Of a stretch of 64,000 bases of DNA, positions 21,621-27,747 are shown in pieces. Below the pieces are notes generated by a model. The model had not been told where the DNA came from. It was given only the letters and a program-made list of their open reading frames with translations, and made no database searches. Numbering within the stretch: position 1 is the first letter of the stretch; every line of letters starts with the position of its first letter. Both the position numbers and the translations under genes were made by a program. Origin of the DNA: Myxococcota bacterium (GTDB taxonomy: Bacteria > Myxococcota > JAJVIH01); assembly GCA_022072125.1 (NCBI GenBank), contig JAJVIH010000016.1, forward strand, positions 307,856 through 371,855, written 5' to 3'.

Positions 21621-21783
21621 CGGCGCCCGCACGCTGTTCCGCCCCGCAGCAGCTTCAAACCCGGCTCAGCGCGGTCTCCCATCGCCATGGCGTTTTCTCC
21701 GCGGCGCGTTGCGCCGGGGAGCCGGAACCTTTTCCCCCGCCCTTGCCGGCGGTTTCATCGCACATGGTTTGATGTTTTTGACA

Positions 21784-21805
21784 ATGGCGCCCGCGCCATT
21801 TTTTT
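21784..21805 (+). terminator. Rho-independent terminator upstream of second kinase
   Basis: ATGGCGC-CC-GCGCCAT forms a perfect 7-bp stem directly followed by seven T residues. It is the most canonical intrinsic terminator in the window. It isolates the lipoprotein gene from the kinase gene that starts 35 bp later. Confidence 0.75.
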
Positions 21806-21839
21806 GGGATGCCCAGCGCCCGGCTATACCCTTGGCCCC

Positions 21840-23063
21840 ATGAGCGGGATGCAACATCTCTCATCTACCACGCCCGGCTGCGCACCCTCGCCTGAACGCG
21901 ATGCGCGCTATCAGCGTTGCCCCAACTGCAACCGTCCCAACGATGTATCCACCTGCGCGGAAGGCCAGAAGATCACCTGCCGCGAGTGCGGGGTCCGTTT
22001 TTCGGTGGATTCCGCCACCGCCGCGCGCACGCCCACCCCGCCGCCCGACCTGCTGCGCAGTCCGCATACCGCCAAACTGCCAGCGTTCCGCATATCCGGA
22101 TACCGCATCAAGGGCGTGATCGGGCAGGGCGGCATGGGGGTGATTTACCTGGCGGAGCAGGAATCCCTCTCCCGCGATGTCGCCATCAAGGTGCTGGCGG
22201 AAAAATGGGCCGGGCAGGAGGTCATTCTGCAGCGTTTTCACCGCGAGGCGGCGGCGCTGGCCAACCTGCGGCACCCCAACATCATCACCATCATTGACAA
22301 GGGCGAGTCCATGGGCCAGCCCTGGTTCGTGATGGAATACATCAAAGGCAAGAGCCTGCGCGATCTGATTGATCGCGGGCCGCTCAACCTGACCGACTGG
22401 GAATCCATCATCATCCAGATTTGCCGGTCGCTGGAGCACGCCCACGCCCACGCCGTGGTGCACCGGGACATCAAACCGGAAAATATTCTCATTGATCATA
22501 TGGGCAATGTGAAACTGGCCGACTTCGGTCTTGCGGCCTTGGTGGACCCCCAGCGTGCGACCGACAACATGACGCGCAGCCAGGTCGCCATGGGCACCTT
22601 CAATTACATGGCTCCGGAGCAGCGCCGCAACGCCAAGACCGTGGACCGCCGCGCCGATGTCTACTCACTGGGTGTGGTCATGTACGAAATGTTGACCGGT
22701 TTTCTGCCAGAGCGGGAATACCGGCCTCCTTCCACCGTCAATCCGCAGGTTCCGCCCGCGATTGACGACGTGATCGCCCGCTGCCTCGCCACCGATCCGG
22801 ACGGACGCTTTGAAACCGCCCAGAAACTCAAGGAAGCTGTCCGCGCCGCCTGCTCCCGGCTGAAAATCTCCGGCGTTCCACGCTCCAACCCGGAAGCTCC
22901 CGGAACGCCCCCAGCCGAGGCGCGCCCGGAAATCCGGCGGCGGCTCAATGGCCGGCGCTCCCGGCCCATCATGGCGGAGCGGCGGGTGCAGGCCGCCGTG
23001 CTGGCCACCGCCGTGCTGATGACCTTTTCCACTATCGTCTTGCTGCTCGTCCGGGCGGTCTGA
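21840..23063 (+). CDS. Ser/Thr protein kinase with zinc ribbon and C-terminal membrane anchor (407 aa)
   Basis: Residues 24-55 hold a zinc-ribbon-like CPNC...CREC. The kinase domain runs from about 88 to 350: GQGGMGVIYLA, VAIKVLA (K117), HRDIKPENIL (208-217), DFG (228-230), GTFNYMAPEQ. Here HRDIKPEN retains the catalytic lysine, unlike the other two kinases in the window. A basic linker leads to one C-terminal membrane helix (VLATAVLMTFSTIVLLLV), with almost no extracytoplasmic part. Start 21840 is preferred to 21687, which lies upstream of a terminator. TATACC at 21825-21830 would start transcription almost at the ATG, so the mRNA may be leaderless; ATG 21849 is an alternative. Confidence 0.88.
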   Translation: MSGMQHLSSTTPGCAPSPERDARYQRCPNCNRPNDVSTCAEGQKITCRECGVRFSVDSATAARTPTPPPDLLRSPHTAKLPAFRISGYRIKGVIGQGGMGVIYLAEQESLSRDVAIKVLAEKWAGQEVILQRFHREAAALANLRHPNIITIIDKGESMGQPWFVMEYIKGKSLRDLIDRGPLNLTDWESIIIQICRSLEHAHAHAVVHRDIKPENILIDHMGNVKLADFGLAALVDPQRATDNMTRSQVAMGTFNYMAPEQRRNAKTVDRRADVYSLGVVMYEMLTGFLPEREYRPPSTVNPQVPPAIDDVIARCLATDPDGRFETAQKLKEAVRAACSRLKISGVPRSNPEAPGTPPAEARPEIRRRLNGRRSRPIMAERRVQAAVLATAVLMTFSTIVLLLVRAV

Positions 23064-23250
23064 TCCCCCGGCCAATCCCTCGCATTTCTCCCGTCCGGAT
23101 TGTCCGCGCCGGCGCTGGACAATCCGCGCCAGCAGGGTGGTTTTCCGCGCAAACGGACGCTCAAAACCGCGGGATTGCGCTTGCCTCCCCCAGAGTATTT
23201 GATTTAACCTGCTCTTTTATTATGGAGATCATCCTCTCCAGGATTGCATA

Positions 23251-24537
23251 ATGCTCGATAGCGGCGGCGCCATTCAGGGCCAGAAGTTCGGCAAATACAT
23301 GCTCATCGATCGCATCGCGGTCGGCGGGATGGCCGAGATATTTCTGGCGCGCCAGGAAGGTATTGATGGTTTCGAGCGCCCTGCCGTCATCAAGCGCATC
23401 CGCCCGCATCTCTCGAACCAGCCGGGCTTCATCAAGATGTTCCTGAATGAAGCCAAGATCGCCGCCCAGCTCAACCACCCCAACGTCTGCCAGATTTACG
23501 ATTTGGGCCGCATCGGCGACTCCTATTTCCTCTCCATGGAGTTCATCCATGGCCGGGACATGAGCCGCATCATTCCCAAGGCCAAGAAGAAAAATATTCC
23601 CTTTCCCATGGAGTACGCCCTGCGCATCGCCGAGGAGGTTTGCCAGGGACTCCACCACGCCCACAGCAAAACCGACGCCTATGGCAATCCGCTCAATATC
23701 GTTCACCGCGATGTTTCCCCGGAAAACGTGCAGGTGTCGTTTGACGGCCATGTGAAGATGCTCGATTTCGGCATCGCCAAGGCCCAGGGTTCCCTGTCGG
23801 AAACCAAGGCGGGAGAGATCAAGGGCAAGCTCTCCTACCTGTCGCCGGAACAGTGCAAGGGCCTGGCGCTGGACCACCGCAGCGACGTGTTTGGCGTGGG
23901 CGCCATGCTCTATGAATGGCTGACCGGCTACAAGCTGTTCAAGGGAGAAAGCGATCTCGAGGTCATCAACAACATCATTGACGGGAAGATTTACCCGCCC
24001 AGCTATTTCAAGGCGTCCATCCCCGAGCCGGTGGAGCGAATCGCCATGAAATCGCTGGAGAAGGACCGGGAGAAACGCTACCAGTCCGCGTGGGAGATGC
24101 ACCAGGAAATTGAGGCGTTCCTCAAGAGCCACACCTTCTATCCCACCAATATGCATCTCTCCAACTTCATGAAACAGCTTTTCAAGGATGAACTGGAGAA
24201 GGAGCAGAAACGCTACGCCGAACTGACCGAGGCCGCGCGCCGGCTGGGGCGTAACAGCGTGGTGGACATGGAGGCCGTGCCGGACGACAACTCGTCGCAC
24301 CAGACGGACACCTTTCCCGCGCGGCGGGAAGGATCCCGCCCAGGGGGAGGATCGGAAACTCCCCAGAACCGGCAGGTGCATCTGTCCGGCACGATAGACG
24401 GCGGTGGGGGCAAACTGCTCAAGCTGGCCATCACCAACGCGGAGTTCGACAAGTTGAAGGCGATGGCGGAGAAGAACAACACCAAGGTCACCGAACTGGT
24501 GAAGGATATTCTGCGTCATTACCTGAAGTACCAGTGA
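23251..24537 (+). CDS. Ser/Thr protein kinase with C-terminal ribbon-helix-helix-like domain (428 aa)
   Basis: The kinase domain covers residues 15-290: divergent glycine loop AVGGMAEIFLA, VIK lysine (K48), HRDVSPEN (152-159), DFG (172-174), LSYLSPEQ. HRDVSPEN replaces the catalytic-loop lysine by serine, as in many myxobacterial kinases. After a disordered linker (about 340-385) the last 40 residues, KLLKLAITNAEFDKLKAMAEKNNTKVTELVKDILRHYL read in parts, follow the strand-helix-turn-helix pattern of CopG/Arc ribbon-helix-helix proteins. There is no membrane segment, so a cytoplasmic kinase able to dimerise and perhaps bind DNA is implied. The fold assignment of the tail is by pattern only. 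It may be monocistronic. Confidence 0.88.
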   Translation: MLDSGGAIQGQKFGKYMLIDRIAVGGMAEIFLARQEGIDGFERPAVIKRIRPHLSNQPGFIKMFLNEAKIAAQLNHPNVCQIYDLGRIGDSYFLSMEFIHGRDMSRIIPKAKKKNIPFPMEYALRIAEEVCQGLHHAHSKTDAYGNPLNIVHRDVSPENVQVSFDGHVKMLDFGIAKAQGSLSETKAGEIKGKLSYLSPEQCKGLALDHRSDVFGVGAMLYEWLTGYKLFKGESDLEVINNIIDGKIYPPSYFKASIPEPVERIAMKSLEKDREKRYQSAWEMHQEIEAFLKSHTFYPTNMHLSNFMKQLFKDELEKEQKRYAELTEAARRLGRNSVVDMEAVPDDNSSHQTDTFPARREGSRPGGGSETPQNRQVHLSGTIDGGGGKLLKLAITNAEFDKLKAMAEKNNTKVTELVKDILRHYLKYQ

Positions 24538-24849: not shown

Positions 24850-25872
24850 ATGGATTCAGATCGTCCCATGAGCAATCCGGATAAAAAAAAGCCCGTCAGT
24901 ATTGAGCAAGCCATGGCCGAGGCCCTGGCCAGCGTCGAACGTATCGAACGCGAAAGTTCAGGCGAACAGGAAGGCGTTGATCTTGACATTGGCGCGGAAA
25001 CTGAAAATCATGCCGCCGAACTGAAAAAACTCCGCGAAGAGATTGACGCCCTGCGCCGCCAGTCCGACGAGGCCCAGGAAAAGATGCTGCGGGTGGCTGC
25101 TGAATACGACAACTACCGCAAACGCATGATCAAGGAACGCTCCGAGATCATGAAATACGCAGGCGAAGGTCTGCTGCGTGAACTGCTGCCCTCTCTCGAT
25201 AACCTGAAGCGGGCCCTGCAGTTTGCTCCGTCGGGGGATGAAAGCAAGGAGTTTGTCAAGGGTATCGTCATGGTGTCCCGCATGGTGCATGAGGCCATCG
25301 CCCGGTTTGGCGCGGAAGGGTTCGAATCCAAGGGGAAACCCTTCAACCCCGAGCGGCACGAGGCGCTGCAACATGTGTTTTCCGCCGATGTTCCGGCGGG
25401 GGCCATCATCGAGGAAATGGAGTCCGGTTATTTGTTCAAGGATCGTTTGCTGAGACCGGCCAAGGTGCTGGTGTCCCGCGGGCCGGCCCCGGCGCCGAAA
25501 CCGGCGGATCCGCCGGTGGCGGAAGCGCCGCCGGCCGCTGAACACCGTCCATCTGGCGGGGCGGACAGCGTGGAATCGCCCGGCAAACCGGCGTCCGGCT
25601 CCATGGCCGCTGGACCGGCCAGGCCCGCCACGGCTCCCGCGCAAGAGGTTGAGCAAACCGTGGCCGCGCCGGAGCCGGCGGCGGAGGGCAAGCCTGCCGC
25701 GGAAGCAGCGGCGGGGTCCGGCATGGAAAATCCGGGGGGAGAGAACGGGCCAAAGGCGCCATGGGAAGAGGCGCCGGGGGTTTCTGAAATAGCAAGGTCT
25801 GGGGGCGCCGGGGAAAGCGGCGGGGATGGTGATGGCGCGGATAGCGAGACTTCGACAAAGGATGCCAAATAA
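24850..25872 (+). CDS. grpE: GrpE nucleotide exchange factor with unusual C-terminal extension (340 aa)
   Basis: GrpE releases ADP from DnaK. The long dimerisation coiled coil spans about residues 50-100 (ELKKLREEIDALRRQSDEAQEKMLRVAAEYDNYRKR region) and the beta-domain about 140-205, with the family signature NPERHEALQHV and LRPAKVLVS. Canonical GrpE is about 190-210 residues and ends here near residue 210. This protein adds about 130 residues rich in Pro, Ala, Gly and Glu with no recognised fold. The extension is in frame, uninterrupted and of normal codon use, so it is not an obvious artefact. ATG 24868 is an alternative start. dnaK follows after 60 bp. Confidence 0.9.
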   Translation: MDSDRPMSNPDKKKPVSIEQAMAEALASVERIERESSGEQEGVDLDIGAETENHAAELKKLREEIDALRRQSDEAQEKMLRVAAEYDNYRKRMIKERSEIMKYAGEGLLRELLPSLDNLKRALQFAPSGDESKEFVKGIVMVSRMVHEAIARFGAEGFESKGKPFNPERHEALQHVFSADVPAGAIIEEMESGYLFKDRLLRPAKVLVSRGPAPAPKPADPPVAEAPPAAEHRPSGGADSVESPGKPASGSMAAGPARPATAPAQEVEQTVAAPEPAAEGKPAAEAAAGSGMENPGGENGPKAPWEEAPGVSEIARSGGAGESGGDGDGADSETSTKDAK

Positions 25873-25932
25873 AGTACAGAAACAGGGGGCGCGGCGCTAA
25901 ATCCACGGCGTGTCCGCGAAGCGGGAGCGTTT

Positions 25933-27747
<1,815 letters not shown>

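Follow-up and report, generated by a model that had tools for sequence, protein, structure and literature searches.

A Myxococcota-wide soluble Ser/Thr kinase clade, very probably that of Pkn14, carries a C-terminal tail of predicted ribbon-helix-helix fold

Background

Pkn14 of Myxococcus xanthus reportedly acts as a restraint on MrpC, which plays a key regulatory part in the entry into fruiting-body development. Among enzymes that carry a ribbon-helix-helix (RHH) domain is PutA of Escherichia coli, where this domain is N-terminal and binds DNA, and the repressors CopG and Arc are stand-alone DNA-binding proteins of the same beta-alpha-alpha fold. Pkn14 (MXAN_5116; PMC7694542) is cytoplasmic, is phosphorylated by the membrane kinase Pkn8 and phosphorylates MrpC (PMC6213207), and the mrpC gene has the locus tag MXAN5125 (PMC3509222). 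In RHH repressors one face of the strand enters the major groove while the loop and the start of helix 2 approach the DNA backbone; a myxobacterial example is CdbA of M. xanthus, which stands alone, binds both DNA and c-di-GMP, and presents K8, S10 and Y12 on its strand face (PMC7156744).

Here we report on a 428-residue kinase encoded in a 64,000-nucleotide stretch of Myxococcota DNA (referred to as the window, i.e. the whole stretch analysed). Hanks-type kinases, RHH domains and enzyme-RHH fusions (PutA) were already known, as probably was Pkn14 itself; new are the fold of the kinase's C-terminal tail, the presence of this tail in every orthologue examined and the loss of its DNA face. In the open-access literature, outside which most subscription journals lie, we found no description of an RHH domain on a Hanks-type kinase or on Pkn14, nor in that literature any description of the assembly or activation of a soluble Pkn14-like kinase.

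Results and discussion

A soluble Hanks-type Ser/Thr kinase with an intact catalytic domain

The gene and the parts of its product that precede the tail are as follows.

23251..24537, + strand: whole gene, encoding a 428-aa soluble Hanks-type Ser/Thr kinase (open reading frame and translation, ATG start; reciprocal best hit)
23284..24129, + strand: kinase domain, residues 12-293 (Pfam 1.8e-34, invariant columns, model)
24130..24255, + strand: conserved helical extension after the C-lobe (HLSNFxKQLFxDE), residues 294-335 (model and identity)
24259..24408, + strand: disordered linker, residues 337-386 (pLDDT and alignment)

The Pfam Pkinase profile matches residues 22-278 (1.8e-34), with HRDVSPEN at 152-159 and DFG at 172-174. 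When the window protein was aligned with 36 orthologues, K48, E67, D154, N159 and D172 were invariant, and T185 in the activation segment was nearly so. In the AlphaFold model of the full-length protein the kinase domain has pLDDT values mostly above 85, with the exception of the activation loop. Hence the complete kinase domain noted in a preliminary description of this DNA is indeed intact, and by sequence criteria, with Lys, Glu, HRD, Asn and DFG all in place, the protein qualifies as a Hanks-type (eukaryotic-like) Ser/Thr kinase. The extension that follows the C-lobe is modelled as two helices, 300-310 and 312-335, and its residues 294-330 show a mean pairwise identity of 47% among the orthologues. 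The linker, which the same description had taken to be disordered, has pLDDT below 50 over residues 336-386, and in the orthologue alignment its mean identity is 15% with 34% gaps; the span corresponding to residues 318-388 varies between 30 and 95 residues in length across the orthologues.

The tail is predicted to be an RHH domain

24409..24534, + strand: C-terminal ribbon-helix-helix domain, residues 387-428 (RHH_1 in orthologues, AlphaFold, Foldseek)
24415..24432, + strand: predicted ribbon strand LLKLAI (columns 5-10 of alignment A1)

On its own the window tail gives a sub-threshold RHH_1 match (E 0.027-0.044), and other small families likewise stay below threshold, so the single sequence is insufficient to settle the fold. 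Taken with the orthologues, the match goes beyond chance: among 33 distinct orthologous tails, 18 match the Pfam RHH_1 profile (best 2.5e-9) and nine match FitA-like RHH, and a blind RHH_1 search of 17 genomes placed the kinase tails of four of them (G029, G003, G009 and G019) above the Pfam curated cut-off. Profile matches in the PDB included ParG, AvtR, CopG and NikR at 0.002-0.13. The TALE proteins that topped these matches (1e-15) were dismissed as an artefact of many weak repeat matches.

Modelled alone with AlphaFold, the tail adopts an RHH-type fold at a pLDDT of 93.6, and residues ~391-428 reach 91-96 in the full-length model. The layout is an extended strand (389-394) and two helices (396-408 and 413-427). 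In the strand of the window protein L390, L392 and I394 point inward, and L389, K391 and A393 form the face that touches DNA in RHH repressors. Alignment A1 has only hydrophobic residues in strand columns 6, 8 and 10, and its core positions are hydrophobic throughout. Foldseek returned RHH proteins for nearly all of the 50 best PDB matches listed (TM up to 0.91, 0.7 Å rmsd), including PutA, CopG, ParG, Arc, NikR, TacA, ParD, AtaR and CdbA. The corresponding E-values are weak (0.16 or worse) because the domain comprises only 44 residues, and the weight is therefore placed on the consistency of the match list together with the sequence matches. PutA, likewise an enzyme with an RHH domain, has the top TM-score among the listed matches (0.90-0.91 at 0.7 Å) but is a different enzyme, and in the window kinase the RHH domain is C-terminal and its DNA-face residues are not conserved. 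CdbA, although a myxobacterial RHH protein, matches the tail less well (TMq 0.63) than CopG or PutA and differs in standing alone.

Sequence matches and modelling thus agree on a predicted RHH fold, i.e. a short strand with alternating core residues followed by two helices, and the earlier view of the tail of this cytoplasmic kinase as a domain of the CopG/Arc/MetJ type is borne out. That the tail might instead be a plain coiled coil, be disordered or be missing from close homologues was checked, and none of this was found.

The tailed kinases form one clade across the Myxococcota

Orthologues were searched for in 58 genomes of the same phylum. Most families have one clearly separated best match per genome, with the tailed group scoring about 431-532 bits and other kinases at most 355; one tailed member at 361 bits is truncated by its contig. 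The architecture seen in the window recurs in all 36 extracted orthologues, each ending in the same ungapped block of ~42 residues that follows a linker whose length varies greatly, and in 43 of the best 80 named loci from a scan of genome contigs (42 detected by HMM and the diverged L112 by eye). The other 37 of these 80 loci lack the tail and are more distant kinases, most of them 600-1000 aa long, and in a tree of the kinase domains from the 80 loci a single branch with support 100/100 splits tailed from tailless. Among the matches listed, the labels of the tailed loci read Myxococcota, Deltaproteobacteria or unclassified in nearly every case. Two loci, L109 and L115, bear the label Pseudomonadota, perhaps in error, and are nested within Myxococcota rows.

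A search with the tail only gave a match (E <=1e-4) in 134 of the 174 genomes with a completeness of 85% or more, and nearly all matches in these 134 genomes fall in one open frame of ~360-750 codons per genome, with a few in short stand-alone ORFs; the kinase domain was confirmed in part of the matching frames. Strong tail matches were absent from G035 (family f13) and, in this search, from most other f13 genomes, and the best kinase matches of the f13 genomes in the 58-genome search are at paralogue level only. Judged from these searches, the tailed kinases are a Myxococcota-wide, essentially single-copy clade of cytoplasmic Ser/Thr kinases. Identity among orthologues is 26% for the tail vs 67% for the kinase domain, and the low value for the tail indicates that what is retained is the fold and not a specific surface.

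The clade very probably includes Pkn14, while MrpC appears to be a lineage-specific substrate

The window protein and its Myxococcus-type orthologue are reciprocal best hits (470.6 bits vs 290.8 for the next kinase of the window genome), fall in one supported clade, and the latter gene has the position relative to mrpC that is expected of pkn14. Specifically, the orthologue of G053, a Myxococcus-type genome of family f8, is located nine genes (some of them ORFs tallied by position) from an mrpA-mrpB-mrpC-like trio, which is the spacing between MXAN_5116 and MXAN_5125. Through this orthologue, gene order and locus tags make it very probable that the clade of the window kinase includes Pkn14 of Myxococcus. 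The mrpC-like gene encodes a CRP-family protein of 248 aa with a TTSS run near its N-terminus, and a TTSS motif has been reported for MrpC (PMC7643160). The distance from kinase to mrpC-like gene is 9-16 kb in the other f8 genomes compared and, in G049, which carries an apparent insert beside the kinase gene, about 24 kb. In that genome a stretch of ~8.5 kb with lower third-position G+C (L158; G049:C1, about 6305500-6314000) lies just upstream of the Pkn14-type gene, and that it is missing at this spot in G053 suggests a genome-specific insertion.

The window kinase thus resembles Pkn14 in being a soluble Hanks-type kinase whose Myxococcus-type orthologue shares the mrpC spacing, but differs in its genomic setting. 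Within the genome sample, MrpC-like proteins that exceed 50% identity occur in f8 and G051 (53%) only, and no close MrpC was found in the window genome, which has only generic CRP-family proteins that are about 26% identical along part of the sequence. MrpC is therefore not the substrate shared by the clade, was rejected as a candidate for the ancestral substrate, and is probably not a substrate of a kinase such as that in the window. With the kinase in most families and MrpC in f8 and G051, MrpC looks like a lineage-specific substrate. One f8 genome, G047, retains a 95%-identical MrpC but has no kinase closer to the window protein than paralogue level, which suggests that the Pkn14-type kinase has been lost there.

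Upstream region and gene neighbourhood

23096..23126, no strand assigned: perfect 10-bp inverted repeat CGGATTGTCC-N11-GGACAATCCG, in the gap that separates the window gene from the kinase gene before it

The inverted repeat is unique in the genome and starts 33 bases past the stop of the preceding gene, in an intergenic gap of 187 bp (23064-23250); the region around it folds better than most of its shuffled versions (z -2.3). The repeat is equally likely to be a hairpin at the end of the preceding gene or an operator. Five GGATTG/CAATCC hexamers lie within about 190 bp upstream of the gene, the last of which starts ten bases ahead of the start codon; since a 200-bp stretch with five copies exists somewhere in the window for each of 32 different hexamers, this cluster is unconvincing as an operator. 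Inspection by eye revealed no conserved palindrome or operator upstream of the Myxococcaceae orthologues.

The gene directly upstream (21687-23063, + strand) encodes a second Hanks kinase, whose N-terminal segment contains cysteine and whose C-terminal end is hydrophobic. Since Pkn14 is reportedly phosphorylated by the membrane kinase Pkn8, a functional pairing of the two neighbouring kinases is, by analogy, conceivable. The upstream kinase was rejected as a conserved activator, its best matches in six genomes being ~45% identical, like ordinary paralogues. A kinase ORF is also present just upstream of the orthologue in G018 (L066).

Directly downstream, at 24850-27747, are genes for a GrpE with a long C-terminal extension and then DnaK, a further point in which the window locus differs from that of Pkn14. 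A conserved kinase-grpE-dnaK module (cf. the grpS-sglK region of M. xanthus) was ruled out, since the arrangement occurs at no orthologous locus. The neighbours of the orthologues, named by eye, vary: truA is close downstream in Myxococcaceae, and an amidohydrolase gene is upstream in several other families. We found no conserved small partner gene adjoining the kinase across families.

The strand face of most tails lacks the DNA-binding signature

A small number of basic residues on the strand may suffice for some RHH domains to bind DNA, and the contacts of RHH domains with DNA co-evolve with their operators, so variability of the face taken alone is compatible with DNA binding. The controls for the kinase tails were 23 stand-alone RHH_1 domains of this phylum, a set biased toward typical RHH domains as it was collected by the Pfam profile; the groove-facing positions, columns 5, 7 and 9 of alignment A1, were assigned by analogy with known RHH structures. 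Across 64 distinct tails the mean entropy is 2.35 bits for the strand face, 1.83 for the other surface and 0.41 for the core, which makes the strand face the most variable of the surface groups compared. It is devoid of K/R in 53 of the 64 tails vs three of the 23 controls, and its positive charge is lower in the kinase tails (Mann-Whitney p 4e-7, a rough value because rows within both sets are related). Acidic residues at columns 5 and 9 are commoner in the kinase tails than in the controls, proline at column 9 is found in 8/33 vs 0/23, and an acid at column 30, the N-terminus of helix 2, in 16/33 (48%) vs 1/23. Pkn14-type tails typically have L/M/T-A-P on the face, and the window tail has L389-K391-A393 and a net charge of +3 over 38 aligned residues. 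A subset of tails has Arg there (e.g. ERR, ERK), and individual members may differ. The conserved surface of the 64 tails lies in K/R24 (84%), D/E35, K/R42 (97%) and an aromatic residue at column 43 (88%), with columns 42-43 at the C-terminal end of helix 2.

The family as a whole thus fails to show the signature of DNA-binding RHH domains, that is, a polar or basic strand face and a phosphate-contacting N-terminus of helix 2. In contrast to CopG and Arc, which share the fold, most kinase tails lack basic strand-face residues.

Possible roles of the tail

We consider it moderately probable that the tail, carried on a flexible tether, serves for constitutive dimerisation, pairing two kinases and aiding their activation without binding DNA. 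Two chains would intertwine through the beta-ribbon and the alpha2 helices, as the RHH fold implies for the tail, and this pairing would hold the two kinase domains close. Such proximity could make it easier for the kinases to trans-autophosphorylate their activation loops, which carry the nearly invariant T185, and paired kinases might engage oligomeric substrates, e.g. transcription factors, bivalently. Both the homodimer and its promotion of activation are projected from the modelled fold. A core that is kept hydrophobic while the linker varies between 30 and 95 residues is as expected of a tethered dimeriser. It is also conceivable, if unlikely, that the tail is a docking module that pairs with another protein, be it a second RHH protein, a substrate or a regulator, instead of or in addition to itself, and so sets the choice of substrate. 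The most conserved non-core columns (24, 35, 42 and 43) lie outside the strand face, RHH antitoxins, represented in the structural matches by TacA, ParD and AtaR, bind a partner protein as well, and with close MrpC-like proteins limited to f8 and G051 the other families would need other partners. The lack of a conserved small partner gene beside the kinase across families weighs against docking, and the role of columns 42-43 may be no more than to stabilise the RHH dimer.

The preliminary description had proposed that the kinase could dimerise and sit on DNA through its tail; dimerisation follows from the fold, but the part concerning DNA lacks support, given the variable face and its loss of basic residues relative to the controls. 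An RHH tail that binds operator DNA and places the kinase at promoters, perhaps its own, where it would phosphorylate DNA-bound regulators or repress directly, is accordingly a reading to which we give little credence. The fold is of the DNA-binding type and the closest structural matches listed include the enzyme-RHH fusion PutA; moreover, the probable best-studied member of the family has a transcription factor as substrate (PMC6213207), the window gene follows a unique inverted repeat and the five hexamers, and a few tails, with K391 and the net positive charge of the window tail as a case in point, do have Arg or Lys on the face. These points are set against a face charge far below that of the control RHH domains, the acid at the N-terminus of helix 2 and a strand face that is the least conserved surface group, as well as the lack of a palindrome conserved by eye among Myxococcaceae; with neighbours that differ between families, a common regulated target is not evident. 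Overall, DNA binding by the tail is not supported, and we infer that the tail does not bind DNA.

Conclusions

That the Myxococcota have a near-universal class of kinases whose own RHH dimer sits at specific DNA sites, phosphorylating regulators on promoters, appears very doubtful; if true, a Hanks kinase would phosphorylate regulators in place on promoters, and the class would be one previously unreported. An RHH fold on an enzyme need not imply DNA binding, and caution is warranted in reading it so. The kinase has been kept across much of the phylum, far beyond the distribution of MrpC, and the RHH tail on every orthologue examined suggests a simple and testable mechanism, tail-driven dimerisation.
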